Assembly: GCA_017508195.1 (NCBI GenBank)
Contig: JAFVZL010000032.1
Location: forward strand, 1 to 62,154
Direction of reading: 5' to 3'
Source: Clostridia bacterium
GTDB lineage: Bacteria > Bacillota > Clostridia > Oscillospirales > CAG-272
Length of the DNA stretch: 62,154 nucleotides
The translations under genes were made by a program, and so were the position numbers. This document shows, piece after piece, positions 19,760-36,763 of this stretch; position 1 is the first letter of the stretch; the number at the start of each line of letters is the position of its first letter. Under the pieces are notes generated by a model that was not told the DNA's origin, made no database searches, and saw only the letters and a program-made list of their open reading frames with translations.

Positions 19760-19765
19760 GGTAAA

Positions 19766-19857: not shown

Positions 19858-19864
19858 TTGTGCA

Positions 19865-19887
19865 AACCACCAGCACGGCTGGTGGTT
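19865..19887 (+). repeat. right-end hairpin of the IS200 element
   Basis: Same 9-bp stem as the left-end hairpin, loop CACGG. It ends 19 bp before the stop codon of the convergent FAD-dehydrogenase gene. Confidence 0.8.
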
Positions 19888-19905
19888 ATGATTGATCAAT
19901 CGCAC

Positions 19906-21489
19906 TTATTTTCCAAACATTTCTATCAGCTTGGCTGCCTGTCTGAGGCCGTCTGTAGCCGAGGATACTATTCCTCCGGCATAGCCCGCGCCCTCCCCTG
20001 TCGGGTATATGCCATTGTGACCAAGCGCGACACCTTGCTCGTCTCTCTCCATTCTGAGGGGCGAGGTCGTTCTTGTTTCGGGGCCTGTTAGGACAGCATC
20101 GGAATAGTTGAAGCCCGGCATCCACAGATCAAAATCCACCATTCCCAAGCGGAGCGAATCTTCGATATAGTCAGGAAGATATTCCGAAACTCCTAGCTGC
20201 TCAACACCTCTTGGATAGGTTGGACACACATCACCGAATGTTGTACTTTTATCAGCCGTCATAAGCGAAGAAAGCGTTGATGCGGGGGCTTTATATCTGT
20301 TTGTTTTCGAGAACGCCAACCTCTCTATTCTCTCTTGATATTCTATTCCTGCGAGCGGATGCTCTGAGCCGAAGTCGGCGGGTGTTACGCTGACGAGCAT
20401 TGCGCTATTTGAGTTATCCCCCATCCTTGCGTGCTCACTCATACCGTTAGTTACTATTGCACCTTCGCTGCTGGTAGCGGCTACAACCGTACCGCCCGGA
20501 CACATACAGAAGCTATATACGCTTCTCCCCGAGGGCAGATGAGTAACAAGATGATAGGATGCGCTCTCGGATATGATATTACTCGCTTCCCGATATACAA
20601 GCTTATTGATATACTCGCGCTTATGCTCTATGCGTACACCGATACCGAAGCCTTTCGGTGTCATTTGGATGCCTTTGTCATATAGCATCCTCACTGTATC
20701 CCTTGCACTGTGACCGATAGCTATAATGGCGGCAGCGGTGTCTATTCTATACTCTTCGCCATTCTTTTGGTATATTACTGCGGTAAGCTCTCCGTCTATA
20801 AGTTCAAGCTCTGTCAGCTTTGCAGAGAATATGAACTCTCCACCGAGCGACTCGATTTTTTCCCTGATTGCCGTCAGTATGCGCGGCAGCTTATCCGTTC
20901 CGAGGTGTGCGGTTGAGGAAAAAGCAATATCATCAGTTGCTCCCGAAGCTATAAACTCAAAAAGAACTCTTCTTTTATACGGGTCCTTAGAGCCTACCTT
21001 AAGCTTTCCGTCGGAAAAAGTACCTGCTCCGCCCTCACCGAACTGCACGTTGCACTCGGTGTCGAGTATGCCGAGTCTGTTAAAAAGGGCAACCTTTTCA
21101 GCCCTCTTGGCGACGGGTAATCCGCGCTCGAGAACTATGGGTCTTGCACCCGATTCGGCAAGTGCAAGTGCGGCAAATAACCCCGCAGGTCCTGCACCTA
21201 CGACTACCGGGCGGAAATCAAAGCTGTGACTTTCTATATAGAAGATCTCTTCCTCGTGCGGCTTAACGCGATTCCTTATTTTAAGGAGTCCGCGCTCACG
21301 CTCATCGCTCGTTCTGAATGCAACCGTGCATTTATACGAGGGTGATGCAGTATCAGATAAATCGAGAGTACGCTGCAACAGATGCTCTTCCCTTATCTCA
21401 TCTCTTTCTATCGGCAATGACGCGCATATAGCATCGATAATGTCGGAGGACGAGTATCCAAGCTTAAGTCTTATATCAATTTTTATCAT
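19906..21489 (-). CDS. FAD-dependent dehydrogenase (COG2509 type)
   Basis: 527 residues. An N-terminal domain of about 90 residues precedes a Rossmann FAD-binding motif, VVVGAGPAGLFAALALAESG, with GAGPAG at residues 98-103. Further on are FGEGGAGTFSDGKLK, a second nucleotide-contact region AIGHSARDT, and the C-terminal GEGAGYAGGIVSSATDG. These are typical of the uncharacterised NAD(P)/FAD-dependent dehydrogenases of COG2509. The physiological substrate is unknown. GGAGG precedes the ATG, and a TATAAT (21516-21521) lies upstream. Confidence 0.85.
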   Translation of the reverse strand: MIKIDIRLKLGYSSSDIIDAICASLPIERDEIREEHLLQRTLDLSDTASPSYKCTVAFRTSDERERGLLKIRNRVKPHEEEIFYIESHSFDFRPVVVGAGPAGLFAALALAESGARPIVLERGLPVAKRAEKVALFNRLGILDTECNVQFGEGGAGTFSDGKLKVGSKDPYKRRVLFEFIASGATDDIAFSSTAHLGTDKLPRILTAIREKIESLGGEFIFSAKLTELELIDGELTAVIYQKNGEEYRIDTAAAIIAIGHSARDTVRMLYDKGIQMTPKGFGIGVRIEHKREYINKLVYREASNIISESASYHLVTHLPSGRSVYSFCMCPGGTVVAATSSEGAIVTNGMSEHARMGDNSNSAMLVSVTPADFGSEHPLAGIEYQERIERLAFSKTNRYKAPASTLSSLMTADKSTTFGDVCPTYPRGVEQLGVSEYLPDYIEDSLRLGMVDFDLWMPGFNYSDAVLTGPETRTTSPLRMERDEQGVALGHNGIYPTGEGAGYAGGIVSSATDGLRQAAKLIEMFGK

Positions 21490-21585
21490 ACCTTGTCCTC
21501 CATTCCTTTTTTCTCTATTATAGCATAAATTACGTTAACATTAAAGTCTTTTTTTATTTTAGTGAACTCTTTTTACAAAAAAGCT

Positions 21586-21618
21586 GAGCGAAGATATCCT
21601 CTTGGGATATCTTCGCTC
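21586..21618 (-). terminator. terminator of the carbohydrate transport operon
   Basis: Perfect 14-bp stem (21586-21599 with 21605-21618). On the minus strand it is followed by AGCTTTTTTG, on the plus strand by TTTGTTT. It lies 78 bp past the last permease stop. Confidence 0.85.
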
Positions 21619-21695
21619 TTTGTTTACCCTCACGGGTAGCGATGTATACTATTTTTCTGTCGAAAAATGGTACAATTCAAAGACAAATCCTTGAA

Positions 21696-22769
21696 TTAGC
21701 CTACAATACCCGAACGCTCAATACCCTCAACCAGATATCTCTGACAGAAGAGGTACATGATAATAAGCGGAGCAATTATAAGCATACCTGCCGTGTTCTG
21801 AACGATGTTATAATACAGAGTCTTTGCTCCGTATCCGTTCGGAGGAATGAGTGAGGGAGGCATCTGAGTGTACATATCGGGCATAAGAATGACCTTAAAC
21901 TGAGGGTCATCCGTGTAGAAGAAGAGACTGTGATAGAACTCATCGGTCCACTGCCACGAGAAGGAGAAGAGGAAGATCGTGATCATCATCGGCACCGCAA
22001 GGGGCAGGATGATCTGGAAGAAGGTACGGAAAACGCCCGAACCGTCAACGTATGCAGACTCCTCAAGCTCATCGGGAACTCCCTTAAAGAACTGTCGCAT
22101 CAGGTAGATGTAAAGACCGTTCTTGAAAGCAAGACCGCCGATAGAAAGAATAAACAGAGGCCAGAAGGTGAACGTCAGGTCAAGCGCATCGCCGGTAACA
22201 AGCTCAATGATACCGGGATACTGCCAGGAAAGCACGGTTGCAAGGTCGAAGGATGCAAAGTGCTTCATGATCGACGTCTGAAGTGCGCTGTGCGGGATAA
22301 CCATCGTTACGATAACTGCGATCATTACGATAGAGTTGCCCTTGAACTTGAACTTAGCAAGTCCGTATCCGACAAGACAGGATACCATCATCTGAATTAC
22401 AGCACACATAAGTGATAGCAAGAGGGTGTTGATAAAGCCCTCAAAGTAGTTGTTCTCGAATATGATAGCCTGATAGATCTCGAGAGTCGGATTCTTCGGA
22501 ACAAGAGATACCGTCGCGTCAAGAACGTCAGCCTGAGTCATAAAGGAGTTAGCAATTCTTGCAAGGAAGGGATACAGAATTACGAAGGATACGCCAAGCA
22601 TAAGGATAAACTTAAGTACGTTTACACCCGCGGTGATCCACGTATTTGCTTCCTTAAGCTTCTGTATAAGCCTTTCCTTAAAGGTAAGCTTACCCTCGAA
22701 ATCTACCGAGATGCTATTCTTGGTTTCTCTTCTTACTACGGGAGTAGATTCTTCATTCATTGAAGCCAT
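21696..22769 (-). CDS. carbohydrate ABC permease, MalG/LplC type (pair 2)
   Basis: 357 residues. Inner-membrane subunit of a CUT1-type sugar importer. After a 45-residue cytoplasmic N-terminus with many charged residues come six hydrophobic helices. The EAA loop that contacts the ATPase is visible as ELEESAYVDGSGVFRTFFQIILPLA. GGAGG precedes the ATG. Last gene of the operon, 13 bp after its partner permease. The operon has no ATPase, so a shared MsmK/UgpC-type ATPase encoded elsewhere must be used (inference from CUT1 systems). Confidence 0.9.
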   Translation of the reverse strand: MASMNEESTPVVRRETKNSISVDFEGKLTFKERLIQKLKEANTWITAGVNVLKFILMLGVSFVILYPFLARIANSFMTQADVLDATVSLVPKNPTLEIYQAIIFENNYFEGFINTLLLSLMCAVIQMMVSCLVGYGLAKFKFKGNSIVMIAVIVTMVIPHSALQTSIMKHFASFDLATVLSWQYPGIIELVTGDALDLTFTFWPLFILSIGGLAFKNGLYIYLMRQFFKGVPDELEESAYVDGSGVFRTFFQIILPLAVPMMITIFLFSFSWQWTDEFYHSLFFYTDDPQFKVILMPDMYTQMPPSLIPPNGYGAKTLYYNIVQNTAGMLIIAPLIIMYLFCQRYLVEGIERSGIVG

Positions 22770-22781
22770 TTTCGCACCTCC

Positions 22782-23813
22782 TTAATCCTTTCTTTGGTAG
22801 AATACCATCGTCGAGGCAATTGCCGCGACAACGCCGATGATCAATAGAACGACCACGAAGTAGATCCAATACATCGCGATAGCGTAGTGAGGATCGACCG
22901 TTGTCTGTCCGTTGATGAATACCATCATCGGGTTTGACGAACGTGTGAACGAGTCAATAACCGTATAGATAGCATTTACAAGAATCATCGGTGAGATCAT
23001 CGGGAACGTAACCTTCCAGAAGGTCTCCCAGCCCGTCGCACCGTCGATACGGCACGCCTCGTAAATCGAGGGCGAGATCGACTGAAGACCTGCAAGGAAG
23101 ATAAGCATCTGAACACCCGAATAGTTGATAATATTGTAGATATTGTTAACAAGACCTACAACGTAAGTAACCAGCTCTCCGCCTATCGCCATGGATTGGA
23201 ATATATACTGTACGTCAAGCATATTGATAATTCCTGCTCCGGCTGAGGCTCCCGTACCGTCGTCTATACCCGCCTGGGTCTGACCCGTCGCTATATCTGC
23301 GCCATTGATCGAGTCCATAAGACCGGTTGCGATAATAACGGGAACGAAGAAGATCGCTCTGAAGGCTGCTCTACCGAGCATCTTCTGGTTAAGAACGACT
23401 GCGATAAAGAGTGCGAAGATGATGATGGCAGGCACCTCGAAGAGAAGCTGCTGTATCGACGACAGAAGCGTCGTTACGAAGCTCGGCGACTCAACGAAGG
23501 CATTAATGTAAAAGTTGAAGTAGTTGGGGGTGTAAACCTCGGTCATTACTCCGTCTACCGGAACGTAGGATCTGATGAAGAAGCTCCACCAGATCGAGTC
23601 GATCAGGATAGGCAGATATACGAGAAGAACACCGAGAATAAAGGGGAGAACAAACACGTAGCCTGCCATAGCACGCTTCTTCTCGAGCGATGCCGAGCGA
23701 CGACGGCGTTGAGGCTTTTCTTCTACCTTAGGCTCGTCGTTTTCGACTACCTCGGCAGCATTTTCTGTTATCTGCTCAGCAACTGTGGTTTCCTGAGAAA
23801 TAGTTTCTTCCAT
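22782..23813 (-). CDS. carbohydrate ABC permease, MalF/LplB type (pair 2)
   Basis: 343 residues. A charged cytoplasmic N-terminus of about 45 residues (EE/KVEEKPQRRRR) leads into six or seven helices, with a glycine-rich extracytoplasmic insert (about residues 170-200, GADIATGQTQAG). The EAA loop is IYEACRIDGATGWETFWKVTFPMI. It forms a heterodimer with the following gene product. AGGAGG lies ahead of the ATG. This second permease pair follows the DUF5696 gene, whereas pair 1 follows the binding-protein gene. Confidence 0.9.
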   Translation of the reverse strand: MEETISQETTVAEQITENAAEVVENDEPKVEEKPQRRRRSASLEKKRAMAGYVFVLPFILGVLLVYLPILIDSIWWSFFIRSYVPVDGVMTEVYTPNYFNFYINAFVESPSFVTTLLSSIQQLLFEVPAIIIFALFIAVVLNQKMLGRAAFRAIFFVPVIIATGLMDSINGADIATGQTQAGIDDGTGASAGAGIINMLDVQYIFQSMAIGGELVTYVVGLVNNIYNIINYSGVQMLIFLAGLQSISPSIYEACRIDGATGWETFWKVTFPMISPMILVNAIYTVIDSFTRSSNPMMVFINGQTTVDPHYAIAMYWIYFVVVLLIIGVVAAIASTMVFYQRKD

Positions 23814-23827
23814 TTGCCGTCTCCTCC

Positions 23828-26800
23828 TTATCCTTCAATTTTGTAAAAGCCGTATTTTTCAACGGTTTTAACGGTGTTTGCGTCAAGTCTTACAGTAACA
23901 CTGTAAACGTTGTAGTTAAGTATGAATCTGACAGTGTGACCCGTCTTCTGATTCTTATAGGTTACCATAGCAACGCGGTCATTGTCCGCAGTGTATCTGG
24001 TATAGTCATAGCTATCCTCATCGTCATTCATGGTCGAGTCGGTAACTATGTCATATGCAGTCTTCTCTGCATAGTTGCTGACAACGTCAACCGATACTGC
24101 GTATCCGCCATCGGTGCTGTAATCAGCGGTAAGTTTTGCAACTACTGCGAGAAGCTTCTCGTAGAAGGTGTCGACAGTCTCATTGTCCGTAACAGCCTTG
24201 AGCTCCTCTACGCTTATATTCATAAGCTCAGATGCCTGTGCTACGAGCTTATCGGTGTCAACGCTAAGCTTAATACCTGTACCTACGGGGACACCGTTAT
24301 CTCTCATTGCATCAAAGGCAACTCTGATAGCCTCGAGAATCTCCGCCTCAACCAGCTTAACGAACTCATCCTTGACAAGCTCTCTGTTCTCTGCCATCTC
24401 CTTTTCGTCGATAACACGCTCGGTGAGGATCATCTTGTGATCAACGATCTCGTAGTCCTGATATTTTCCGATAGCAGCGTTAAGAACGTTGTACTGCTGA
24501 ACGAGATCGTCGTACCAGTTCTGGTAGTCGATACCGTAGTAATCGTTAAGTACCTCATCCTCCTTCATAAACTCCGTATTGTCGTAGCAGAGTATGTAGT
24601 AAAGAGATGCACCGTTCTCAATAGCACGAAGGATCTCGTAGTCGGGCGAGCCCGCATAGTTGATCGGAGAGCCTGCGTAATTAACGTATCCGTGAAGCAC
24701 CATACCAATGAAGGGGACGGTGTAGGATGAGTAGGTGAAGTGGCTGGAGTCAGTAGAGATATCAAGAATATGATCAGCATATCCGAGCACGTAGGAGTTA
24801 CCCTGCGAGATCATTACGTCATAGCCATCTGTGTTTGCCATTCTGTCAAGAAGAGCGGCAATGTTTGCACTCGATTCATCACGGTTGATGGGATTCTCTT
24901 TATCGAAGTTGGAGTTAAGATCCGAACCTAAGGTAGATACAGAGATGTACTTGTGATTGTATGACGAGTAGCTGTTATTAAACTTGGTGTAAAGTCTGTC
25001 AAGTGCGTCACTCGAGATAACCATCGAGTAGAAGGACTCGTAGAATCCGAGCACCGAGTTGTAGACCTGCTTTGAAGCATAACGGTTATCAACCATTCGC
25101 GAAAGGTCTGTACCCTCGTCGACTCCGTCAAGCCATGCACTGTTGGACATGTAAGAGAAATCGAACTCGGGATATACACCGAAGCTTGCACCGTTCTTAC
25201 TGATAGCCTTAGCCTGATTGATAAGGTTTACAAAGCCGTTGCTGCCGCCGCATGCACCCTCCCAGTTAACTGCCGTGGGATAAGTGAAGTACATACCTCC
25301 GTTCGCAAAGCCGGTGAGCTTAAAGTTGATGTTGCTGATGCTCTTCATAGAGTCAACAAGCTTATCGTACTCGTCTGCTCTCTTTGCGTACTTCTCGCGA
25401 AGAGTCTTATTATCGACCTCCGCCTCGGATCTCGTTCTGTACTCCTTTGCCTTTGCCTTGAACTTTGTGGTTACATCCGCAAGCTCCTTATACATCGTAA
25501 CGATATCGTCAAATGTAGTAAGAGGCTTGGATACAGTTACGGGGAAGGTAAGGAACTTCTCCATTACCGTCATGGAACCGAGAGCTTCAATGTAAAGGGG
25601 AAGATCTTCGCCGACATTCTCAAGTGCGGTAAGATCGCCAAGAGACTTAAGATAGTCGCGGTAATAGTTTGCCATACCGACGTAGCTTGCGGGAGTCTTT
25701 GCACCGGCAAGCGTAGGATCGTCAAGCATTACGTATCTCGTAATATACGAGCCTGTGTACTTGGAATCAGATACGATCTTGTAGGTAGAGCCCGAACCTC
25801 CCGTAGAGCTGTCAAGCTTATACTCATCGGAGGGATAAGGTGAATAGGATGCGTATACGGAAGAATACTGGTGAGTGTTACCTCCGAACGATACGTACAT
25901 GGTAGCAAGTGATGCGCCTTCCTCAAGGATCGCAAAGAAGCCACCCTTGTGATCGGTATAGTCTGCAGTGCTGCCGGTGCCGTATCTTGCGGTAGTGGTA
26001 ATACCGTAAACAGGCATGGTAACGATCTCCTTGTGCTTACCTGAGGGGTTAGCATAAGCAAAGTCATCACCGTAAACCGAAAGAATCAAAGATACGTTCT
26101 GCTTTTCCTTATCATCGTAAAAGTCAGAGTACTCGATAACAGATCCGGAGCCGTCGGGAATAAATACGTATCCGTCCTTTGTGAGATCACCCGAGCCGAA
26201 ATACTGAAGAGGCGTGATCGAATCAAGGTTGTAAAGAGCCTCGTCGAAGCTGATCGAGTTAACGGGAAGTCTTACCGAAAGAGATCCGTCAGAATTGAAG
26301 CTGTATTCGAGAGAGCATCTGAATACCGGGTGCTCGATCAACTTGTGTACGTATTTGCACTCCGCCTCATGCTCAGTGAGCATATCAATGGTGTATGCGG
26401 AGTATCTGGTAAGCCATCTCTCAAGTCTCTTGAGCTTGTTGTTCGTATCAGCCGAACAAACGTAGATAGCAACGCCCTCTCCGAGAAGAGGCTTATCCTC
26501 AGGAGCTGTCTCGGGAGTAAGTCCGTCAGGCTTAAAGAGTGTGAAGGACGAACGGAGTGTCGCAAGAGCCTGCTTTACGCCCTTAAACTCGTTGTAGATA
26601 TCCTTATCCTTAACGGGATCAAGATACTTCTTGTATACCGTCTCACTCACCTCGGCGTATCTGAATACCGCACCGAGGTCAACTCTGCCGTCACGGTCAT
26701 ATACCGAGGTCGATCCCCACTTCTCTCTTGCGTAGAAGTTATAATCGGATTCCAGAAGGCCGTAAGTCTCAACGAGATGAGACTCGAAGAGTGAGTGATA

Positions 26801-27412
26801 GTAGTCGAGCATAGGATCGAGCACGAACTCAATGTATGCCTCCTCGGTAATCTGCATCGGAACGTTGTAGCGCGTCGTAGTATCACCTATGGTGTAGTTG
26901 ACTCGAATACCGTTTGCGATGAAGGTCGTTGTGATCTGTGCGCGGTCCGCGGAATCGGTAGCGCTTGTGAGCACACCGTTGTTAGCAGCGGCCTCGCCCG
27001 AATCGTGAGAATACCTGATAGTTATCTGGTTCATCAGGTCCTTTTTGGTCAGATCGGATGCATATGCGCCGGGGTTATAAGGATTCGAGCAAAGGATCTG
27101 ACCCGTACGGTTATTCTTGTAATACATAACTCCGTTGTATCTGTTTACGTATATGGTGTAAGCATTACCGGTGGAATTGATATAATCAAGGTAACCGTTT
27201 GCAAGATCGCTTTCCAGCATCTCTTCATAGCTCGAGAAATTATTCTTATAAGACTCCTTAACGATGCTTATGATCTGTGATGCGGTAAGTGTCTGCTTAC
27301 CTACAGAGGCGGATGAGTGTGCTGCGCTCACCGATACGGGAATAAGTCCCGCTACGGATACGAACAGAAGCACTACCACAAGAGCAGACGATAATATTTT
27401 TTTCATATTCAT
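23828..27412 (-). CDS. secreted DUF5696 protein (predicted glycan-active)
   Basis: 1194 residues. Signal peptide at 1-31 (MNMKK start, cleavage near VSVSAA). The long body includes SITPLQYFGSGDLTKDGYVFIPDGSGSVIEYSDF and YAYPEFDFSYM-like strands suggestive of a (beta/alpha)8 barrel after a beta-rich N-terminal part; this ordering, and its setting beside sugar permeases and a Yip1 protein, match DUF5696 proteins as I know them from Paenibacillus and Clostridia. No lipobox, cell-wall anchor or C-terminal helix was seen. Activity is unknown; a glycoside hydrolase-like role is inference. AGGAGG lies 8 nt before the ATG. Central gene of the operon. Confidence 0.75.
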   Translation of the reverse strand: MNMKKILSSALVVVLLFVSVAGLIPVSVSAAHSSASVGKQTLTASQIISIVKESYKNNFSSYEEMLESDLANGYLDYINSTGNAYTIYVNRYNGVMYYKNNRTGQILCSNPYNPGAYASDLTKKDLMNQITIRYSHDSGEAAANNGVLTSATDSADRAQITTTFIANGIRVNYTIGDTTTRYNVPMQITEEAYIEFVLDPMLDYYHSLFESHLVETYGLLESDYNFYAREKWGSTSVYDRDGRVDLGAVFRYAEVSETVYKKYLDPVKDKDIYNEFKGVKQALATLRSSFTLFKPDGLTPETAPEDKPLLGEGVAIYVCSADTNNKLKRLERWLTRYSAYTIDMLTEHEAECKYVHKLIEHPVFRCSLEYSFNSDGSLSVRLPVNSISFDEALYNLDSITPLQYFGSGDLTKDGYVFIPDGSGSVIEYSDFYDDKEKQNVSLILSVYGDDFAYANPSGKHKEIVTMPVYGITTTARYGTGSTADYTDHKGGFFAILEEGASLATMYVSFGGNTHQYSSVYASYSPYPSDEYKLDSSTGGSGSTYKIVSDSKYTGSYITRYVMLDDPTLAGAKTPASYVGMANYYRDYLKSLGDLTALENVGEDLPLYIEALGSMTVMEKFLTFPVTVSKPLTTFDDIVTMYKELADVTTKFKAKAKEYRTRSEAEVDNKTLREKYAKRADEYDKLVDSMKSISNINFKLTGFANGGMYFTYPTAVNWEGACGGSNGFVNLINQAKAISKNGASFGVYPEFDFSYMSNSAWLDGVDEGTDLSRMVDNRYASKQVYNSVLGFYESFYSMVISSDALDRLYTKFNNSYSSYNHKYISVSTLGSDLNSNFDKENPINRDESSANIAALLDRMANTDGYDVMISQGNSYVLGYADHILDISTDSSHFTYSSYTVPFIGMVLHGYVNYAGSPINYAGSPDYEILRAIENGASLYYILCYDNTEFMKEDEVLNDYYGIDYQNWYDDLVQQYNVLNAAIGKYQDYEIVDHKMILTERVIDEKEMAENRELVKDEFVKLVEAEILEAIRVAFDAMRDNGVPVGTGIKLSVDTDKLVAQASELMNISVEELKAVTDNETVDTFYEKLLAVVAKLTADYSTDGGYAVSVDVVSNYAEKTAYDIVTDSTMNDDEDSYDYTRYTADNDRVAMVTYKNQKTGHTVRFILNYNVYSVTVRLDANTVKTVEKYGFYKIEG

Positions 27413-27432
27413 TTGTATTACCTCCTGCTTTC

Positions 27433-29610
27433 CTATACTCTGTTGCCGATCTCGGCAAATATGGAAACTACAAACTGAACCATCTTCACAACAAGGCTCG
27501 AGAAGAGAATCGCGATGAACATGATGATAACCATCGCAACTATCGTACCGAGAATGGTGACGAAGTTCTTTCCAAGTGAGTAGTCATGTGTAACAAGTGT
27601 TCCGAAGAACAGAAGAATTCCAACCCATACAAGACCTATAGTGGTAATAAGGGTGACCATAGTACCCTCGCTCGTGGTCATGATGTTAGAAAGAAGTGTA
27701 GATACGAATATAAACAGCGGCAACGGTGCTAACGAATAGCAGGTCGCTATGTAAATATCCTTTAAGCTACCCTCACCATCAAAGAGTGTGGTAAGGCACC
27801 AGTTGCCTATTACCCAAAGCATTACGGGTACAACGACCGAGATGATCGTCATAAAGATGTTTGCGTAGGAGCCTCTGGTATTGAAGAGATATCCCTGACC
27901 TACGGAGTTATAGAAGAATGCTATAACAGTCAGTGCAAGGAATGTTGTAGCAGCTCTTACAGATCCTCGCTTCTCGTGCTTAAGATCCCAGAAGCCGTCG
28001 AAGGGATGGAATACAAGGTGACATGCGTACACGAGCTCCTCCCAATAGGTCTTCTGACCGACCTTCAGTGTCGTTATCTTGTTCTTCTTCTTTGCGTATC
28101 CGAGGAACTTGAAGAAGAGAACGAGAACAACGATAAGCGCTACTACGATGAGAAGGATCCAGTTCTCAACAACTTCCTTTCTCATCTCAGAGAAAGCATC
28201 CGACGCATAAGTTGTATCATACGCCTTCTGGAGCATGTTGTAAGCCTCAGCGTACTCGCCCTGGCTGTAAAGAGCCTTACCTATACCGATATATGCAAGG
28301 TCAAAGTTGTTGTTCTTCGTGAGCAGGTCGCGCCAATAATCGATAGAGGCGTCGTAGTTATGCTCATTCTGATTGCGGAGCGCTGCAATGATCGTATCGC
28401 AGTAATCCGTAGGAGTATAGACGGTGATCTTGTAACCGTCCATCTTATTGTTATCAAGCACGCAAAGTCTGTATACGCCGTCAACCACCTGATAGGTTGC
28501 TGCAACGATAGCCTCTGCGTTACCGAGCTGAGTACCCGTATCACCGAATGCGAAGAGAAGGTTGCCCTCTTCATCGTAGGTGAAGAGCCTCGAACGGCTC
28601 GAATCGAGAATCGTCCATGATCCCTCAGGACCAAGGGTGATATCCGTGATCTTGGATACTCTCATCTGGTTGAAGGAGTCGACGACCTCACCTGCGGGGT
28701 CGAAGAAGCCGTTACGCTTCATGATCTCAACACCCGTAGAATTGAGTTTCTTTACGGGAGAGTAGGTCGAAGCCTTGCTCCTGAGCGCATTATACTGCTG
28801 AACGGGATCGATCTTGCTGTTGGTAACGTAGATGAAGCCGTTAGAGTCAACCGCGATGTTGTTGTAGGAAACCGAAACGTTCTTTACGCTCGCTGCCCTC
28901 TGCTCCTCGGTCTGGAAGTTACGCCAGATCTGATCGAGGATGGAGTAGGAAACCTTCTGAGCACCGATAAATCCGGTAAAGTCTCCCTCGCTTGAAAGAA
29001 CTACTACTCCCTGATAGATCTTTTCGGAGATAACGAATACTCTTCCGTATTTATCTACCGCAACGGAGATGGGTCTGAACTCACCGTCCTTGATAAGAGG
29101 GGTCGAGGGCTGCTCGATCGTTCTCTCGTACTCGAAGGAGCGTGTGAATACAACGATTCTCTCGTTGTTCGTATCACATACGTATACGCGGCTCTCCTGA
29201 TCGGGGTCCTCTGCGATATCGCAGGTAAGATCTCTCGCGCTGACGAATACCGCCTTGGGAGCGTCGAAGGTCTGCTTGTTGCCGTACTCATCGATGTAAG
29301 AATCGATAATGTCGGTTGCCTCGTAATACTTGTTGATTACTACAATCCTGTTATTCTTGGTGTCGGTAATATAAAGATTACCGTCATCGTCTGCGGAGAG
29401 GTCGGATGCCTCGCTGAGCTTGGTCGAAAGTCCGAGATCAGAATAGTTGAAGGAATCGTCCGCAGAATACGCCATAGGCGAGAGAAGCGGAAGGCCGTCA
29501 ATCGAGTAGGTGTAGGTCTCGTAAGACTCGTATGCAAAGCTGCCGATGCTGCCGAAGAGGAGTACGAACGCAAGTGCAAGGACTACTATTTTAATTAATT
29601 TATTCTTCAT
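27433..29610 (-). CDS. beta-propeller/TPR/Yip1 membrane protein
   Basis: 725 residues in three parts. Residues 1-27 are a signal anchor. Residues about 55-400 carry NHL-like repeats of the type DDDGNLYITDTKNNRIVVIN, SRVYVCDTNNERIVVF, DKYGRVFVISE, DSNGFIYVTNS, predicting an extracytoplasmic six-bladed propeller. Residues about 415-465 form TPR-like helices (YIGIGKALYSQGEYAEAYNMLQKAY). A helix at about 480-500 and then a Yip1 domain with five helices end the protein. GGAGG precedes the ATG. Propeller-plus-Yip1 proteins are known beside DUF5696 genes, but their function is not. It may be a scaffold or sensor of the transport complex. Confidence 0.78.
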   Translation of the reverse strand: MKNKLIKIVVLALAFVLLFGSIGSFAYESYETYTYSIDGLPLLSPMAYSADDSFNYSDLGLSTKLSEASDLSADDDGNLYITDTKNNRIVVINKYYEATDIIDSYIDEYGNKQTFDAPKAVFVSARDLTCDIAEDPDQESRVYVCDTNNERIVVFTRSFEYERTIEQPSTPLIKDGEFRPISVAVDKYGRVFVISEKIYQGVVVLSSEGDFTGFIGAQKVSYSILDQIWRNFQTEEQRAASVKNVSVSYNNIAVDSNGFIYVTNSKIDPVQQYNALRSKASTYSPVKKLNSTGVEIMKRNGFFDPAGEVVDSFNQMRVSKITDITLGPEGSWTILDSSRSRLFTYDEEGNLLFAFGDTGTQLGNAEAIVAATYQVVDGVYRLCVLDNNKMDGYKITVYTPTDYCDTIIAALRNQNEHNYDASIDYWRDLLTKNNNFDLAYIGIGKALYSQGEYAEAYNMLQKAYDTTYASDAFSEMRKEVVENWILLIVVALIVVLVLFFKFLGYAKKKNKITTLKVGQKTYWEELVYACHLVFHPFDGFWDLKHEKRGSVRAATTFLALTVIAFFYNSVGQGYLFNTRGSYANIFMTIISVVVPVMLWVIGNWCLTTLFDGEGSLKDIYIATCYSLAPLPLFIFVSTLLSNIMTTSEGTMVTLITTIGLVWVGILLFFGTLVTHDYSLGKNFVTILGTIVAMVIIMFIAILFSSLVVKMVQFVVSIFAEIGNRV

Positions 29611-29619
29611 AGCCCCTCC

Positions 29620-30495
29620 TTAATCCTTCATACCCGAGGAGCCCATCGTCTCAACGATCTGGCTCTGGTTGAATACGAATACAAGTATAGGAACCATCAT
29701 CATAAGAACCGTAGATGCAGCGCCCGCGCCCGAACGCGCAATACCACCCGAGAGGATCTGACCTATCGCGTAGTTGAAGGTCTTGAGCTCCTCGGAGTGA
29801 ATGTATACCGAGGCACCCTCGTTCCAGAGGTTCTTAAAGCACTCAACCATAAGGGTCAGCCACGCGGGCTTAACCATAGGCATCGCGATAGTAAGATAGG
29901 TTCTGAACTCACTCGCACCGTCAAGTCGCGCGGACTCGAGAACCGTGTTCGGAACCGAGGACTCCATGAACTGCTTCATGAGGTAAAGACCCATCGTTGA
30001 AGCAAGTGAGGGAATGATAATGGACAAATAGGTATCAATCCATCCAAAGGATGAAAGAATGATAAAGTGTGTAACCTGGTTAACCGTGGAGTGGAACATA
30101 AGAGACATTACTATGACCTGGAATATCAGCTTACGGCCGGGGAAACGGAGCTTCGCAAGCGAGTAAGCCGCCATAGAAGCAAATATAAGGTTACCGAGAG
30201 TACCGCAAATGGTGATAAATACAGTGTTGAATATGTATCTCGAGAAGGGTACCCACGAGTCACCCATAAGGGTGAAGAGGTCTACGAAGTTGTCTATCGT
30301 GGGATTGACAACGTAGAAACGAGGGGGGAACATGAAGAGCTCATCCAGGGGCTTGAACGCCTGTATTACGACGTAGTACATAGGAATGAACATGAACAAG
30401 CCGAGGAGAGTGAGCATGATGGTGATACCGAGGTCACCGCCCTTTGATCTGTTGAGGACGACCTTGTGTCCTCTTGTTCTGAGCTTCTGTGCCAT
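29620..30495 (-). CDS. carbohydrate ABC permease, MalG/LplC type (pair 1)
   Basis: 291 residues from the ATG at 30495, chosen because the alternative GTG at 30504 overlaps the preceding stop and lacks a ribosome binding site; AGGTGAG sits just ahead of the ATG. Six helices; EAA loop VLESARLDGASEFRTYLTIAMPMV. It is one base after its partner gene, so the two are translationally coupled. Inner-membrane component of a CUT1-type importer. Confidence 0.9.
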   Translation of the reverse strand: MAQKLRTRGHKVVLNRSKGGDLGITIMLTLLGLFMFIPMYYVVIQAFKPLDELFMFPPRFYVVNPTIDNFVDLFTLMGDSWVPFSRYIFNTVFITICGTLGNLIFASMAAYSLAKLRFPGRKLIFQVIVMSLMFHSTVNQVTHFIILSSFGWIDTYLSIIIPSLASTMGLYLMKQFMESSVPNTVLESARLDGASEFRTYLTIAMPMVKPAWLTLMVECFKNLWNEGASVYIHSEELKTFNYAIGQILSGGIARSGAGAASTVLMMMVPILVFVFNQSQIVETMGSSGMKD

Positions 30496-30496
30496 C

Positions 30497-31444
30497 TTAC
30501 TCACCTACCTTTGAAAGAGCCTTCTTGATCACGATGTTCGATGCGAACATTATGACGAAGAGTATCACGGCTATTGCAGAGGAGTAACCTATCTCATAAC
30601 GTGATCCACCGTAGTCACTAAGATGGTGCATGATAGTATGCGCCGCGTAGTCTACCGAGGGGAATCCGCAAAGAGCGGTAACGACACCGCCGAAGCCGAA
30701 GGAGTTGGTGATAGCAAGCACCGCACCGAACATAAGCTGAGGACGCATTGTCGGAAGGGTGATGTACCAAAGCTCCTGCCAACGGTTCTTGATACCGTCA
30801 ACCGCAGCTGCCTCATACATGGAGCGGTCGATAGTCTGAAGACCTGCAATAAACGAAAGGAACGCGGTACCGAGAGATGTCCAAAGAGCAACCACGATAC
30901 AAAGTCCCATAACGTACTGAGCGTCGGAGAACCATAGTATTGGTGAATTGATAAAGCCGTATTTCATAAGCACCGCGTTCGCCCAACCGTAGGAGTCGGA
31001 TGCGAAGAGCGTCTTCCATACGAGGTATGCACTACCCGAGATGGAGGGTGCGTAGAATACAAGGGTTACAACCGCACGGATCTTAGGAGGAAGCTCATTG
31101 ATGAACCACGCAACAAGAAGTGCTAAGATGTAGGAAACAGGACCCGTGACAGACGCGAATATAAGAGTATTCTGGCAAGCAAGAATAAATATCTCGTCAT
31201 CCATGAACAGTCTCATATAGTTGTCAATGCCTACAAAGTTCGGGAACTGAAGCATGTTAAAGTCGGTAAGGCTGAGGATTATCGAAAGGAATACCGGGAG
31301 GACTGTGAAGATGATGAACAGAAGCAAGAACGGTGCTACCATGAAGTAGGCTGTCTTGTTATTCTTCATCTCTTCCCATGTCCATCTCAGCTTCGACACC
31401 TCAGAACGCTTGACCGGTCCTTGTGTCTTATTTGTCTGTGACAT
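30497..31444 (-). CDS. carbohydrate ABC permease, MalF/LplB type (pair 1)
   Basis: 315 residues. N-terminal helix at about 33-55, then the periplasmic-facing loops and five further helices; EAA loop MYEAAAVDGIKNRWQELWYITLPTM. AAAGGAG lies 7 nt before the ATG. It follows the solute-binding-protein gene by 12 bp, so it is probably the cognate permease for it. Together with the next gene it makes one of two permease pairs in this operon, which is unusual. Confidence 0.9.
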   Translation of the reverse strand: MSQTNKTQGPVKRSEVSKLRWTWEEMKNNKTAYFMVAPFLLLFIIFTVLPVFLSIILSLTDFNMLQFPNFVGIDNYMRLFMDDEIFILACQNTLIFASVTGPVSYILALLVAWFINELPPKIRAVVTLVFYAPSISGSAYLVWKTLFASDSYGWANAVLMKYGFINSPILWFSDAQYVMGLCIVVALWTSLGTAFLSFIAGLQTIDRSMYEAAAVDGIKNRWQELWYITLPTMRPQLMFGAVLAITNSFGFGGVVTALCGFPSVDYAAHTIMHHLSDYGGSRYEIGYSSAIAVILFVIMFASNIVIKKALSKVGE

Positions 31445-31456
31445 TGTGATTCTCCT

Positions 31457-34400
31457 TTACTGCTCGGGAGGCTGGTAAGTGCTCTTTTCGGGAGGTATGG
31501 GCTCATCCTCTGTGGGAACCCAAAGTCCGAACTCCTTGCGCTTACGCTCGATCTCACTGTTGATGGCTCCAATGTAGGATCTCATAGAATCGATCGCATT
31601 GGCGTCGTTGTTTACTGCATCGAGGAATGCGAATGAAACGTATCTCGCAATGATATAAGATCCGGGATAGTTAACGATGGAGGACATGTGATCCATCTGG
31701 TTCATGATCGCTTCCTTCTCGCTGGAGGTCCAGGAGAGATCCTGAATTGACTTCAGGTTAGCGGTCTCATACTTAGCCGACGGACCCATGATAGCAACTA
31801 TTCTGTTACCGTAGTCGGCAGACTGCTTTGCTGCGGTCTCCCACTGGGTGAACTGCCATGCGGGAAGAAGGTTACCTCTCTGATCGCATCCATTGAGGAT
31901 AATGGTCGCGGTTACCTGTGCGAGCGAGTCATAGTTGAGCTCACCGTTTTCTCTGTAAGAGCCGGGGAGCGAGCAGAACTCCCAGAGTCCTGCAATCTCA
32001 GTCGCGTAAACGACGAGCTGGTTATAAAGGTCTGCGTAGCTACCGATAAGAATGGGCATCTCACCCGTTCTGAAACGGTTAGCCGCATCGTAGGATACGG
32101 GGAACGAGTAGTCACTGTAAAGACGGCAGGTAAAGTCGAATGCGCTGAGTGCAACCTCAGAATCAAGGTCAATAGCAGCGCCTGCATACGCCTCGTCATA
32201 CCTTTCGTTGTCAGTGTACTTCCACATGTTACCGCCCTCTTGATAGATCATGAAATCAAGAGCAGCAACGTAGCTGACACCTATCTGCATGTTGTTTGCC
32301 TGAAGCACGGGAAGTATGGAAAGAAGATCATCCCATGTCTCGGGTACCTCCTGCTTGAGATCGGCCAGAACATCCATACGGTAGAACATCATGGAGAACT
32401 GCATCGTTCTCGGGATACCGTAGCACACAGCAGGAAGAGCGGTAAAGCTTCCATCCTCGAGGTACTCTCTGCCGGGAGAGATCATAACGGTATCAAGAGC
32501 AGCCTTAGCAAAGTTAGCTTCACCGTTTTCATCAACGATAACGTCGCCAAAGGTGTTGGTCGTAAAGCTTGCCTCAACGCCATCTCTCTTAGTGGTAGTT
32601 GTCTCGTAGGAGCCGTCCTCGGCTTTGTATGTATAACGTGTGGTGGTGAAGATCGCGTTCTGCTCTGCGGAAAGTCTCGGATCAAAACCGTTTACGCCTA
32701 AAACCGCATCACGGATCGCATAGTTGATAACCTCAGCCGAGCCGAGTCCGAGATAAACATCCGGACCCTTTCTCGAAAGGATCGAGGGCAGAAGAGTTCC
32801 GCCCGTAACGAGCTTAAGTGCAACCGATACACCGGTCTTGTCGGTAAAGCCGCCCTGTGCATCGATCATGGTACGCCAGATATTAGCCTGGTCACGACCG
32901 GCTGCGATCCATACATCGATGTGCTCTGCCTTTTCTTCCGTCTTCGCGGTAACGCCCATCTGGTCGTAGTCGATGAAGAAGGAGGCGAAGAACGCCTGGA
33001 TCTCGAACCAGATACCCTCGAAGAAGTTTGCATCCTGTCTTCTGAGAGCCGAGCTGTCACTGACAAGCTGACCGTCCTTCTCAATCATGGGAGCAATAAC
33101 GATAGAGTCAAGCATGACCGTGCTCGCCTTGGAATCGTTGATCCATGTACCGAGAGTACCGAGATAAGACTTAAAGGTTGAGAGGTTGGCAGCGATATTA
33201 TCACCGTTGTCCGAGCCTACCTTATTAAATAATGTATATATAGTTTGCAGTGTTGCAATATGCGCACCGTTTGTACCGCATATTTCCATCAGTTCCTTAT
33301 GCGTGTTCTCAAGCGCCTTTGCGTGGGTGAGGATCGCGATAAGAACGTCAGGCATTACATCCATGAAGTTGTAGGTATCACTGTACTCATCGGGATCGGT
33401 ACCCGTGAGCTGAAGGATACGCAGATATGCTGCGTTAAGCTCGGTAAGAGCCTTTTCAGCTGTCTGAATATACTCCTTCAAGGAACCGAGCGAGCACTCA
33501 AGGTACAGAGTATATTCCTTTCCCTCCTCAAAATAGAGGTTGAAGGTCTGCTGACCGTCTGTGATAAACTTACTCTGCCATCCGTCGACATAGTCGAACT
33601 TCAGGTTATAAGCCTCTTCAAAAGGAACTGTAGGAGTTCCGTCAGGCAATCCGTAATCGCCGCCCGCGAGCTTCAGAGTACGGCAGACAAACATACCCTG
33701 AAGGGTATTCTGCTTATAGCGCATTCCGAAATTATAGAATCCCGACTTGCTGACCGTAAACTTGTAAGAAGCCCATTGTCCGATCGTGCTGTAGCCGGTC
33801 TCGCCTATAACGTTGTAAAGCTGTGTACCGGACTTGATGGGGAACGTTGCGGGAGATGTGTTATCGTTAGAGGGAGAAACAGATGCATCCGATACCGCAT
33901 CGGGGAACTCAGCCTCGATGATGATAGGATCGGTGTCTGCGACCTTATCGGTCTTACCCTCGTACTTCTTGATGTACTCCTCGTAAGTGATAGTGTCTAT
34001 GGCATCCACTGCAGGAACGAGCTCTATCGACTTAAGGATAACGGGATCGCGCTCAGCCTTAAGAGAGATCTTGTGATCGCCCTCAACGAGGTTGAATACA
34101 AAGTATCCCGAATGATAGCCCGCACCGTCCTGAAGATAGTAGGTAGTCCAGCTGGGAGTAGCAACCGCACTGGGGGACATCGAGTTACCGATGAGATCCT
34201 GAGAGATCGTGTAGGTGGTGACGGTCTTCTTACCGTCCTTGACCTCTGTAACGATCTTCTTATACGCTTTTACATCGTCGCCCCAGACGTAATCTACGTC
34301 GTAGCTGTCAGCGGCACCGGGAGCATCCGTTGTCTCGGAATCGAAGTAATCGAACGTCCAGTTCTTATCGAGAATTATGCTCGCAACCTCAGAGAAAGGA

Positions 34401-34933
34401 ATTCTGCCGTCGATCGTAAATCCACGCTCGATAGCGGATACGCTGCTCTCATCGGTGATACAGCTGAAGTATTCGAACTTAATGTAGTAAAGACCAGCCT
34501 GCTCGGGCGTGACCACCAGATCAAAGGTGATCGTACCCATCGAGGGAAGGTACACGCTCTTGTCCGCGTTCTCGTCGTAACCGAAATTCTTCCAGTTATC
34601 GGGAGCCTCGGTCATAGCGTTCTTGACGATATCGCTATCCTTGACGATCTGTATCTTTCCGTCATCACCGGACGTAAGGAACTTAGTCACGTCAATGGGG
34701 TCGATACCCGAACCTGCGGGTATGTTCTGCTCCAGGATGTTTGCGATGTACTCACCGTAGGGCAACGTTCCGACAAGTGACTGCATTTCCTCAAGCGTCG
34801 TCGGCTTGTAAGGATTCTTCTCAGTCGGGTCATGCTTCTGAGAAGCTGCAGAAACTGTGAAGCCCATGGAAGTGAGCAGCACTGTTACAGAGAGAATCAA
34901 GCATAAAACTCTCTGAAACCATTTTTTCTTCAT
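31457..34933 (-). CDS. giant extracellular solute-binding protein with CBM-like N-terminus
   Basis: 1158 residues, against about 400-550 for a usual sugar-binding protein. ATG 34933 is preceded by GGAGG; an in-frame ATG 33 bp upstream lacks one. Residues 1-31 form a signal peptide ending SMGFTVSAASQ, with no lipobox cysteine. Residues about 110-330 and 350-520 look like two CBM6/35-like beta-sandwich modules (IIIEAEFPD start of the second). After a helical linker, residues about 680-1130 carry a family-1 binding-protein fold: DVWIAAGRDQANIWRTMI, GPDVYLGLGSAEVINYA, LKQEVPETWDDLL, FRTGEMPILIGSYADLY. How it stays near the permeases without a lipid anchor is unclear; the N-terminal modules may hold polysaccharide or wall. 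Confidence 0.85.
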   Translation of the reverse strand: MKKKWFQRVLCLILSVTVLLTSMGFTVSAASQKHDPTEKNPYKPTTLEEMQSLVGTLPYGEYIANILEQNIPAGSGIDPIDVTKFLTSGDDGKIQIVKDSDIVKNAMTEAPDNWKNFGYDENADKSVYLPSMGTITFDLVVTPEQAGLYYIKFEYFSCITDESSVSAIERGFTIDGRIPFSEVASIILDKNWTFDYFDSETTDAPGAADSYDVDYVWGDDVKAYKKIVTEVKDGKKTVTTYTISQDLIGNSMSPSAVATPSWTTYYLQDGAGYHSGYFVFNLVEGDHKISLKAERDPVILKSIELVPAVDAIDTITYEEYIKKYEGKTDKVADTDPIIIEAEFPDAVSDASVSPSNDNTSPATFPIKSGTQLYNVIGETGYSTIGQWASYKFTVSKSGFYNFGMRYKQNTLQGMFVCRTLKLAGGDYGLPDGTPTVPFEEAYNLKFDYVDGWQSKFITDGQQTFNLYFEEGKEYTLYLECSLGSLKEYIQTAEKALTELNAAYLRILQLTGTDPDEYSDTYNFMDVMPDVLIAILTHAKALENTHKELMEICGTNGAHIATLQTIYTLFNKVGSDNGDNIAANLSTFKSYLGTLGTWINDSKASTVMLDSIVIAPMIEKDGQLVSDSSALRRQDANFFEGIWFEIQAFFASFFIDYDQMGVTAKTEEKAEHIDVWIAAGRDQANIWRTMIDAQGGFTDKTGVSVALKLVTGGTLLPSILSRKGPDVYLGLGSAEVINYAIRDAVLGVNGFDPRLSAEQNAIFTTTRYTYKAEDGSYETTTTKRDGVEASFTTNTFGDVIVDENGEANFAKAALDTVMISPGREYLEDGSFTALPAVCYGIPRTMQFSMMFYRMDVLADLKQEVPETWDDLLSILPVLQANNMQIGVSYVAALDFMIYQEGGNMWKYTDNERYDEAYAGAAIDLDSEVALSAFDFTCRLYSDYSFPVSYDAANRFRTGEMPILIGSYADLYNQLVVYATEIAGLWEFCSLPGSYRENGELNYDSLAQVTATIILNGCDQRGNLLPAWQFTQWETAAKQSADYGNRIVAIMGPSAKYETANLKSIQDLSWTSSEKEAIMNQMDHMSSIVNYPGSYIIARYVSFAFLDAVNNDANAIDSMRSYIGAINSEIERKRKEFGLWVPTEDEPIPPEKSTYQPPEQ

Positions 34934-35068
34934 TTCTGAAATCCTCCGTTCAAATTTGCGGTACATAAGGCCGATCTGCTTGCGGTAGCATCACCGTGGA
35001 GTCTGTGCTCGTTATGAGGCGCCAAGGTGATGGCATCGCAGGCGCAAGTAGACCTATATGCATAAAAA

Positions 35069-35098
35069 ATTATAACATATATGGGCGCGAAAAGTCAA
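35069..35098 (-). promoter_or_regulatory. sigma-A promoter of the carbohydrate operon
   Basis: Minus-strand TTGACT (35093-35098) and TATAAT (35069-35074) with an 18-bp spacer. The leader to the ATG at 34933 is about 125 nt and contains a GCATCACC/GGTGATGG inverted repeat that could fold. No other promoter of this quality was found inside the next 13 kb, so the seven genes are probably one transcript. Confidence 0.75.
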
Positions 35099-35548
35099 TA
35101 GAGAAAAATTCTGCCATATGCGCCCCGAGCGCGAAAATCGGGGGCAGAAAATCGGAGCAAAAAATACTACGCAAACAATAGTTGACTGCTTCAAAAAGCT
35201 AAAATGCGAAAAAATGTCAAAAAGTAAGCTACATTTACATAAGTAATAACGATTTTTCAAGGCAATTCGCTCACACTAGGAAAAGCATGTGTAAATCTGA
35301 TTTAACAGTTTTCAAGCGAAGTTATATTTATCATTAACAAGAAATAATGGGATGTTTTTGTCTATTTTGCATAAATTCCGACTGTTTTTTTCTATACGGC
35401 TGAAAAGCTACACAACCCCGAAATGACGACTTTCGCAGTGCCTTTTCGGGGTGTTTAAAGGTATCACGGAGATGAAAAAGAGCACCCACAGACTATCGTG
35501 CGAGTGCTCTTCCATAATCAACAGAAATTTGATTTGTTTACAAATTGT
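35099..35548. other. long intergenic region upstream of the carbohydrate operon
   Basis: About 450 bp without a gene. It holds the mnmA terminator (35478-35511), a second stem ACCCCGAAA (35415-35423) with TTTCGGGGT (35444-35452), and an AT-rich stretch 35160-35400 with no recognised operator. The length suggests room for an activator site for the sugar operon, but none is identified. Confidence 0.45.
35478..35511 (-). terminator. terminator of mnmA
   Basis: AAGAGCAC (35478-35485) pairs with GTGCTCTT (35504-35511). On the minus strand the stem is followed by TTTCATC, part of a T-rich run. Confidence 0.7.
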
Positions 35549-36601
35549 TTACAACTCCGAAGCCAAGCTTGCAGAGGCTATTATGCCGCCACCCAGAACG
35601 GTGTCGCCATCGTATATTACACAGGACTGTCCCGGAGTAACCGATCTCTCGGGGGAAGGTAGGTAAACGGTAACACCCCCGTCTTCATTAATATTGATTC
35701 GCGCGTGCGTAGGACGCGATGCATATCTTACCTTGACAAGCACTTCCCTGTTTATAAGTTTATCCTGTTCCGGTGCGGTAAAAAACACATTATCAAGTAA
35801 AATCGTATCCGACATCGGCGGCTCATCTCCGAGTGTAACCGTATTGGCTATCGGGTCTATTCCCGAAACGAACGCACGCGCACCAAGAGATATACCAAGT
35901 CCCTTACGCTGGCCTATCGTATATCTGATAATACCCTGATGCTCGCCCAGAACTTTGCCGCTTTTATCAATAAAGCTTCCGTGGGGAACGCAACCTCTTT
36001 CCTTTTCTATATAAGAAGCATAATCGCCATCAGGGATAAAGCATATCTCCTGGCTATCCTTTTTATCGAGCTCACGGTATTCCGAGCTCTGAAGCTCGCG
36101 TCTTATTTCAAACTTGATCTCCTCCCCCATAGGGAGAAGAAGAATATCAGTTATCTCGCGTGGAAGCCTATAAAGCATATAGCTCTGATCCTTGGATCTG
36201 TCGCGCGCCATAGCAATATGCTTGATCCTACCGCCGGGATACTGCCTTTCTGTTATCCTTGCGTAGTGACCGGTGGCTATTTTATCAAATCCGTTAGCTA
36301 AAGCATACTCAAACAGCTTTAAAAACTTAACACGGGGGTTACATATAACGCATGGATTCGGAGTTCTTGCCTTAAGATATTCCGAGATAAAATTTTCTCT
36401 TACCTCCCTGTCAAACTCCTCCCGACAGTCAATAACGTATAAAGGGATACCGAGCTTTTCTGCTGCCTCTTTGGCAGAATCAACATCAGTATGCTCGTGC
36501 ATGACGAGTACGGCGCCGTGTACCTCGTGCCCCTCGTCTATAAGGCGCATAGCGGTATAGGTCGAATCAACTCCGCCACTCATACCAACAAGTATTCTCA
36601 T
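35549..36601 (-). CDS. mnmA: tRNA-specific 2-thiouridylase
   Basis: 350 residues. It thiolates U34 in the wobble position of Lys, Glu and Gln tRNAs, using sulfur delivered from a cysteine desulfurase. PP-loop GMSGGVDST at residues 6-14, the catalytic first cysteine in TPNPCVICN, and the second in SQEICFIPDGDY. GRCGGAG-like GGGGGAG precedes the ATG. It follows nifS-nifU, the likely sulfur source, with a hairpin between them. Clostridial genomes often place it exactly here. Confidence 0.95.
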   Translation of the reverse strand: MRILVGMSGGVDSTYTAMRLIDEGHEVHGAVLVMHEHTDVDSAKEAAEKLGIPLYVIDCREEFDREVRENFISEYLKARTPNPCVICNPRVKFLKLFEYALANGFDKIATGHYARITERQYPGGRIKHIAMARDRSKDQSYMLYRLPREITDILLLPMGEEIKFEIRRELQSSEYRELDKKDSQEICFIPDGDYASYIEKERGCVPHGSFIDKSGKVLGEHQGIIRYTIGQRKGLGISLGARAFVSGIDPIANTVTLGDEPPMSDTILLDNVFFTAPEQDKLINREVLVKVRYASRPTHARININEDGGVTVYLPSPERSVTPGQSCVIYDGDTVLGGGIIASASLASEL

Positions 36602-36728
36602 AGCTCCCCCTTTCCGTCTTCTAGAGAATTTTCCCTAAAAACACCTCACCCGTGTCAATTTTTCGCACGTTTTAGGTATTCTTGTGCCACATCATCCCAC
36701 AGGTTCTTTTACCGCTACATATTTGAGA

Positions 36729-36754
36729 GATAGGCTGCCCGACGGCAGCCTATC
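36729..36754 (-). terminator. hairpin after nifU
   Basis: Perfect 11-bp stem GATAGGCTGCC/GGCAGCCTATC (36729-36739 with 36744-36754), 10 bp beyond the nifU stop. The T tract is weak on the minus strand, so read-through into mnmA is possible. Confidence 0.65.
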
Positions 36755-36763
36755 CTTTATTAA

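Follow-up and report, generated by a model that had tools for sequence, protein, structure and literature searches.

A seven-gene operon of a Clostridia bacterium, read as a probable two-gate CUT1-type oligosaccharide importer with a glycosidase-like DUF5696 protein

Layout of the operon and its unlinked ATPase

The stretch analysed here, contig JAFVZL010000032.1 of the Clostridia bacterium assembly GCA_017508195.1 (62,154 nucleotides, hereafter the window), carries a compact set of sugar-importer genes on its minus strand. Seven open reading frames (ORFs) at 21696-34966 formed one tight operon, with neighbours spaced between an 8-nt overlap and a 20-nt gap, and their order from 5′ to 3′ on the minus strand was a giant solute-binding protein (SBP), a first permease pair (P1F and P1G), a propeller/TPR/Yip1 membrane protein, a DUF5696 protein and a second permease pair (P2F and P2G). 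The tight spacing and the conservation described below indicate that the seven genes are probably co-transcribed. The features of the locus were as follows:

35069..35098, minus strand: sigma-70-like promoter (TTGACT-18-TATAAT, 11/12 matches, TG ahead of the second hexamer)
31457-34966 as listed, probable 31457..34933, minus strand: giant CUT1 solute-binding protein (ORF list, profile, start context)
30497..31444, minus strand: first pair, MalF/UgpA-like permease P1F (BPD_transp_1; EAA loop EAAAVDG)
29620..30504, minus strand: first pair, MalG/UgpE-like permease P1G (BPD_transp_1; EAA loop ESARLDG)
27433..29610, minus strand: propeller/TPR/Yip1 membrane protein (NHL and Yip1 matches, TPR profile, hydropathy)
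23828..27412, minus strand: secreted DUF5696 protein, GH129/GH101-like (Pfam DUF5696, E 4.9e-118)
22782..23813, minus strand: second pair, MalF-like permease P2F (BPD_transp_1; EAA loop EACRIDG)
21696..22769, minus strand: second pair, MalG-like permease P2G (BPD_transp_1; EAA loop ESAYVDG)
21586..21618, minus strand: intrinsic-terminator-like hairpin (14 pairs on the minus strand)

An earlier reading of the letters alone (the original prediction) had described this seven-gene operon, with a promoter at 35069-35098 and a terminator at 21586-21618, and sites of both kinds were indeed present there. Over 21400-35600, 15 promoter-like sites were counted against a shuffle mean of 18.9 (standard deviation 4.5), that is, no excess, and 15 terminator-like sites against a shuffle mean of 10.3 (standard deviation 3.4). 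No Rfam family matched anywhere in the window at the gathering thresholds. The predicted protein types, namely the giant binding protein, two permease pairs, DUF5696 and the propeller-TPR-Yip1 protein, were all borne out by domain matches, which supports a CUT1-type importer with two permease pairs. All four permeases matched BPD_transp_1 and carried the EAA coupling loop of MalF/MalG-type CUT1 permeases; with a loose pattern the loop was found in 145/145 P1F, 144/146 P1G, 146/161 P2F and 149/158 P2G proteins of the loci collected below.

The giant SBP probably starts at 34933 and not at 34966, as a ggagg motif lies ahead of the ATG. It had no Pfam match by hmmscan at E 0.01. A profile of 60 giant-SBP homologues matched CUT1 binding proteins over the C-terminal half (best 5ysb Lin1841, E 1.5e-28), and a genome search with PF01547 (SBP_bac_1) gave a match at 31826..32497 on the minus strand (27.2 bits; cut-off 26), so that the protein carries the family-1 extracellular binding domain of CUT1 importers. 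Its N-terminal part was long and conserved, with one stretch resembling the cycloisomaltooligosaccharide glucanotransferase 5x7g, in a part of that enzyme which we take to be CBM35. The N-terminus of the window protein was hydrophobic and without a lipobox; among the giant SBPs, 114/129 had a hydrophobic N-terminus and only 4/129 a lipobox by a simple pattern, compared with 19/153 DUF5696 proteins and 4/8 classical binding proteins (one of the eight start-truncated).

The membrane protein of the window combined a hydrophobic N-terminus, NHL propeller repeats, a TPR stretch at residues 416-466 that matched consensus TPR chains (8bu0, E 7.2e-6), and a Yip1 domain at residues 532-700, with five hydrophobic segments C-terminal to the propeller. 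By hydropathy, a C-terminal membrane segment was present in 138/140 Yip1-type proteins and in none of the giant SBP or DUF5696 proteins. Because lipoboxes are rare and the membrane segment is confined to the Yip1-type proteins, we infer a tethering role for the latter: the propeller-TPR-Yip1 protein would probably hold the non-lipidated secreted parts at the membrane.

The operon itself had been predicted to lack an ATPase, and this is the normal state of such importers. A 377-amino-acid (aa) UgpC-type ATPase, of the kind that serves CUT1 importers, was encoded elsewhere in the genome (L228:3808-4941; 484.5 bits, cut-off 432), downstream of the PGK and TIM genes, and the four operon permease profiles found no match in the 16 kb around it. 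The importer of the window has in common with CUT1 importers that use a shared ATPase (MsmX/MsmK/UgpC type) the family-1 binding domain, the EAA-loop MalF/MalG-type permeases and the unlinked UgpC-type ATPase, and differs from them in having two permease pairs, two accessory proteins and a giant SBP without a lipobox. At L229:2082-3638 a UgpC/MalK-like ATPase of 518 aa is encoded; its family match falls into two separate stretches, as though an insertion of well over 100 residues preceded the signature region.

Conservation of the gene order and its known counterpart

A DUF5696 profile search was carried out over 398 sampled genomes of the phylum and 147 relatives, and the family was found in 46 of the former (39 above the cut-off) and 108 of the latter (106 above the cut-off); both counts take in some weak or short GH-like relatives. 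An earlier contig scan with a single window protein as the query had found no relative. A set of 181 loci was then assembled from 100 stretches, which were the author's choice among DUF5696 matches in the sampled phylum genomes and the relatives, the best 80 of 215 relatives and the window; the named-relative loci include gut Clostridia, Paenibacillus, Cohnella and Herbinix. Removal of 21 duplicates and of 37 loci that were too short left 123 testable loci. In 114 of the 123, all genes lay on the same strand in exactly the order SBP-P1F-P1G-Yip1 protein-DUF5696-P2F-P2G, the Yip1 protein taking up one or two genes; since all loci were picked for DUF5696, this figure measures how often the order accompanies DUF5696, not how often DUF5696 accompanies the order. 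The original prediction had staked itself on the co-conservation of both permease pairs with DUF5696 and Yip1, and these counts, taken across sampled Bacillota-type genomes, upheld it.

Six of the nine exceptions (L120, L121, L122, L127, L129 and L210) kept the Yip1 protein, DUF5696, P2F and P2G, with P1 not found upstream; in L127 and L129, P1 lay downstream instead. In the remaining three, the Yip1 protein was in three pieces (L093), P2F was not found (L132) or the frames were doubled (L203). The loci without upstream P1 suggest that the two accessory proteins go together with P2F and P2G. Some distant loci, Paenibacillus ones among them, had separate genes for the propeller and the Yip1 domain, and in others the two were fused. 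Multiple DUF5696 matches occurred in single genomes (six in G495, three in G335), which suggests that the module exists there in several parallel versions, each for other glycans.

The cluster had been thought conserved and functionally undescribed, and the second part of that claim held only partly, because a locus printed in the same order has been annotated and regulon-mapped in Caldicellulosiruptor bescii (PMC8579813). The xylan degradation locus (XDL) is given there as xloEFG-X-GH129-axoFGE-xynF-xynE-xynD-xyn10A-xynX-xynB; it is described as holding two CUT1 transporters without a dedicated ATPase, under predicted XynR and AraR control, its proximal genes are induced about 10- to 100-fold on xylan, and oligo- and polysaccharides support poorer growth once the shared ATPase MsmK is deleted (PMC8579813). 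The first seven printed positions of the XDL (SBP-F-G-X-GH129-F-G) equal the order of the window operon, and X and GH129 would accordingly correspond to the Yip1 and DUF5696 families, judging by gene order and not by Athe sequence. In the printed XDL a second binding protein (axoE) follows the second pair, whereas none was found near the window operon.

One collected locus (L130, GC content 35%) showed the operon order, with two SBP_bac_1 proteins next to it and then a GH43 protein that carries CBM_4_9 and is broken by the locus end; this last protein resembles XynF as tabulated in PMC5658599. The XynR operator of the XDL as published (PMC12285236) was absent from the window and was not found in L130 at up to 3 mismatches. 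With a matrix built from five published operator sites, the best match in L130 lay just upstream of the SBP gene and scored 13.9, against 20.2-22.0 for the known sites, and this weak score leaves an assignment of L130 to Caldicellulosiruptor unproven.

Searches of the window genome (87.9% complete) for GH10 and GH43 gave no match, the other XDL enzymes not having been searched genome-wide, and no carbohydrate-active enzyme (CAZyme) was found among nine scanned ORFs flanking the operon (the eight described at the end of the text and an M3 peptidase). The XDL substrate is therefore not transferable to the window operon, and xylan as the substrate in this organism was dropped for want of a GH10 or GH43 match. 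Twenty proteins flanking ten distant loci were also scanned; GH26, GH10, GH43, GH3, GH31, GH35/42-like and apiosidase-like proteins were among them, together with at least six single SBP_bac_1 proteins and some proteins without any family. Since these flanking enzymes vary between distant loci, the seven-gene module has the look of a plant-glycan chassis. The lack of a CAZyme at the flanks and of GH10 and GH43 in the genome would also fit a module that transports or senses non-dietary material, such as the cell's own envelope polymers; the CUT1-type domains throughout the operon and the plant-glycan enzymes adjoining distant copies argue against such a role, which we regard as very unlikely.

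DUF5696 and the catalytic residues of its glycosidase relatives

To characterise DUF5696, a profile of 61 proteins was compared with PDB, and five entries were obtained at E up to 1: 5opq, 8rzg, 8rzk, 5wzn and 5wzq (E 0.013-0.031). The entries 5wzn and 5wzq carry the name alpha-N-acetylgalactosaminidase, and we take them to be NagBb. The name of 8rzg and of 8rzk says only "conserved hypothetical periplasmic protein"; aligned with DUF5696, both give nearly the same picture as 5opq, which is ZGAL_3152, a GH129-like protein (PMC5698469). The next eight matches, at E 1.6-2.7, were all 4F2 heavy chain. Two GH129 proteins matched the DUF5696 model PF18952 with 26.5 and 37.1 bits (cut-off 25.6); the DUF5696 protein of the window itself had no match to PF11308. 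In hhalign, as single comparisons and not a database search, DUF5696 aligned with four GH129 proteins at 97.5% (E 6.3e-12) and with four short DUF5696-like proteins of the same genus at 99.86% (E 5.8e-31). Homology to GH129 is thus present at the profile level, and the relationship to GH129 and GH129-like proteins (NagBb, ZGAL_3152) and to GH101 extends over the N-terminal region, the barrel and the C-terminal region. A search for GH129 in 299 sampled phylum genomes gave no match, and the controls gave none either, so that four proteins underlie the GH129 profile (A6); the profile of the short relatives (A7) was likewise built from four, two of them nearly identical.

The short relatives (559-578 aa) were found in the genus of the window at L233:6034-7713, L234:6360-8075, L235:309-2045 and L236:4717-6432. 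Two of the three that were scanned matched GH101 (25.0 and 22.4 bits; cut-off 25) and the third matched DUF6259 weakly. In 4/4 an Asp (Y-I/V-D) was kept together with a Glu (S-E), and these would be the catalytic pair, judging by the alignment and by the catalytic residues of GH101. The four proteins, encoded outside the operon, are probably active glycosidases that are as yet uncharacterised.

At the aligned places of the operon DUF5696 proteins, the strict Asp and Glu occurred in 0/40, 0/61 and 1/26 sequences of three overlapping alignments. The window protein had S826 (by the GH129 profile) or T827 (by the short relatives) at the place of the catalytic Asp, and S869 at that of the Glu. The Asp aligned to S826/T827 appears to be Asp435 of NagBb. 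This catalytic residue corresponds to Asp486 of ZGAL_3152, and the second catalytic residue is described as not common to both enzymes (PMC5698469); for this reason less weight attaches to the missing Glu than to the missing Asp. In contrast to GH129 and GH101, then, the aligned catalytic Asp and Glu were lost in the window protein and in nearly all aligned operon members, which speaks against the "dedicated extracellular processing protein" of the original prediction. The DUF5696 protein of the window is probably a GH129/GH101-like pseudo-glycosidase without glycosidase activity. Our literature searches found no paper on DUF5696, and none containing Yip1 or DUF5696 for combinations of Yip1, NHL and ABC transporter.

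We also weighed the possibility that DUF5696 is an active glycosidase whose active site is shifted or of another kind, in which case the operon would couple extracellular trimming to import. Besides the homology to GH129/GH101, it was noted that the C. bescii authors call the gene at that position GH129 (PMC8579813), and that GH129 enzymes themselves vary in the second catalytic residue (PMC5698469). Furthermore, D450, D420 and E932 of DUF5696 were conserved in 40/40, 36/40 and 38/40 sequences, a pattern that would fit a binding site or else an active site not yet described. When any acidic residue was allowed, both aligned places were acidic in 4/40, 0/61 and 5/26 sequences, and one place alone in 10, 10 and 4 (first) or 11, 32 and 6 (second) sequences of the same sets; on these lenient counts some operon members may be active. 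The near absence of the strict pair from the operon proteins, against its presence in all four short relatives, makes an active enzyme unlikely in our judgement. If DUF5696 is indeed a dead glycosidase that serves to capture or dock, GH129 labels mislead, and there would be an importer class that uses an enzyme fold as a receptor; the same-genus relatives with an intact catalytic pair offer a ready comparison for this question.

Two permease pairs and the proposed import mechanism

Permease trees were computed from 121/181 loci, with duplicates still included and three outgroup proteins each. The P1 and P2 subunits fell into separate clades, with support of 0.999 for P2F, 0.995 for P2G, 0.888 for P1G and only 0.24 for P1F, and we read the pairs as old rather than as the product of a recent duplication. 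Together with the loci without upstream P1, the separate clades would favour two separable lanes rather than a hetero-assembly. The same two observations, the latter made at the six exceptional loci listed above, are also what would be expected if two independent importers were merely co-transcribed for one diet without a joint complex, the propeller-Yip1 protein having some other membrane role. Both accessory proteins lay between the pairs in 114/123 loci, which speaks against this view, and we consider independent importers possible but doubtful.

A second, classical binding protein turned up close to the operon in 0/41 loci of the same genus (window included) and 0/17 others of the same family, i.e. 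0/58, whereas one was nearby in 2/23 loci of the same order, 16/20 of the phylum and 17/59 named loci. The search extended only as far as each locus, and its profile was made from eight proteins, seven of which came from six of the phylum loci, so that six of those 16 positives were bound to match. Among 104 complete loci, the 80 without a classical SBP had longer giant SBPs (median 1096 aa, against 980 aa in the 24 with one) and longer DUF5696 proteins (1137 against 864 aa). The second permeases were also longer there (P2F 329 against 300 aa, P2G 353 against 336 aa), and the first were alike (P1F 316 and 318 aa, P1G 292 and 293 aa). All these length differences, like those within the permeases given next, are confounded with phylogeny.

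An enlargement of the P2 outer loops where the second SBP is absent was considered and rejected, as most of the extra length lay in the N-terminal tail (P2F 34 against 16 residues, P2G 62 against 51) and the stretch before the EAA helix differed by about 5 (P2F) and 8 (P2G) residues. When P2 was compared with P1, using anchors that correspond within a few residues, this stretch was longer in P2 in both groups of loci: 86 or 81 against 70 residues in the F subunits, and 61 or 53 against 34 in the G subunits. Across the whole family, therefore, the outer loops of the second gate are the larger ones, the lineage effect being small; such loops would suit a special partner, and they motivate, without proving, the idea that DUF5696 serves the second gate.

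Taken together, we consider it likely that the operon encodes an XDL-type two-gate CUT1 oligosaccharide importer with a probable pseudo-glycosidase, DUF5696, and a membrane scaffold. By domains and gene order, the giant SBP without a lipid anchor motif would feed the first permease pair; the second pair would be a separate, old lane. All four permeases would couple through their EAA loops to the unlinked UgpC/MsmX-type ATPase, DUF5696 would probably hold or position the glycan at the second gate, and the propeller-TPR-Yip1 protein would probably act as the tether. For the gut lineage a more specific version can be drawn, in which DUF5696 replaces the classical SBP as the receptor of the second pair, holding the glycan and docking on the longer P2F/P2G outer loops with the help of the propeller-Yip1 protein; we hold this to be quite unlikely, its chances being lowered by the finding that the lineage-specific extra length of P2 is mostly N-terminal tail.

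Several observations weigh against the two-gate importer with a pseudo-glycosidase: the XDL operator is absent from the window, neither GH10 or GH43 in the genome nor a flanking CAZyme accompanies the operon, the lenient acidic counts leave room for active DUF5696 members, and the P1F clade is poorly supported. In addition, the genome encodes two further MalK-like ATPases (412.4 and 343.0 bits; below the cut-off), on contig stretches that carry other permeases too.

A CUT1 importer with a shared ATPase is ordinary and has been glimpsed in C. bescii. What is new here is the breadth over which the seven-gene order is conserved, DUF5696 as a probable dead glycosidase, and a gut lineage without a second SBP at the locus. 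A stable seven-gene module with two proteins whose role was undescribed in the literature we searched points to a general Gram-positive mode of surface glycan capture.

Outside the operon, eight flanking ORFs (16415-21489 and 35549-39618) were scanned and gave a FAD-dependent protein, an IS200-like transposase, M29 and M18 peptidases, a tRNA methyl transferase, NifU, a class V aminotransferase and a ROK protein. Further away, a 1168-aa minus-strand ORF at 100-3606 was without a Pfam match at E 0.001. The transposase gene (19286-19759; Y1_Tnp, E 3.3e-41) lay one gene off the downstream end of the operon, and the gene for the ROK-family protein, a sugar kinase or regulator (38668-39618), lay on the opposite strand, 3.7 kb from the operon start.

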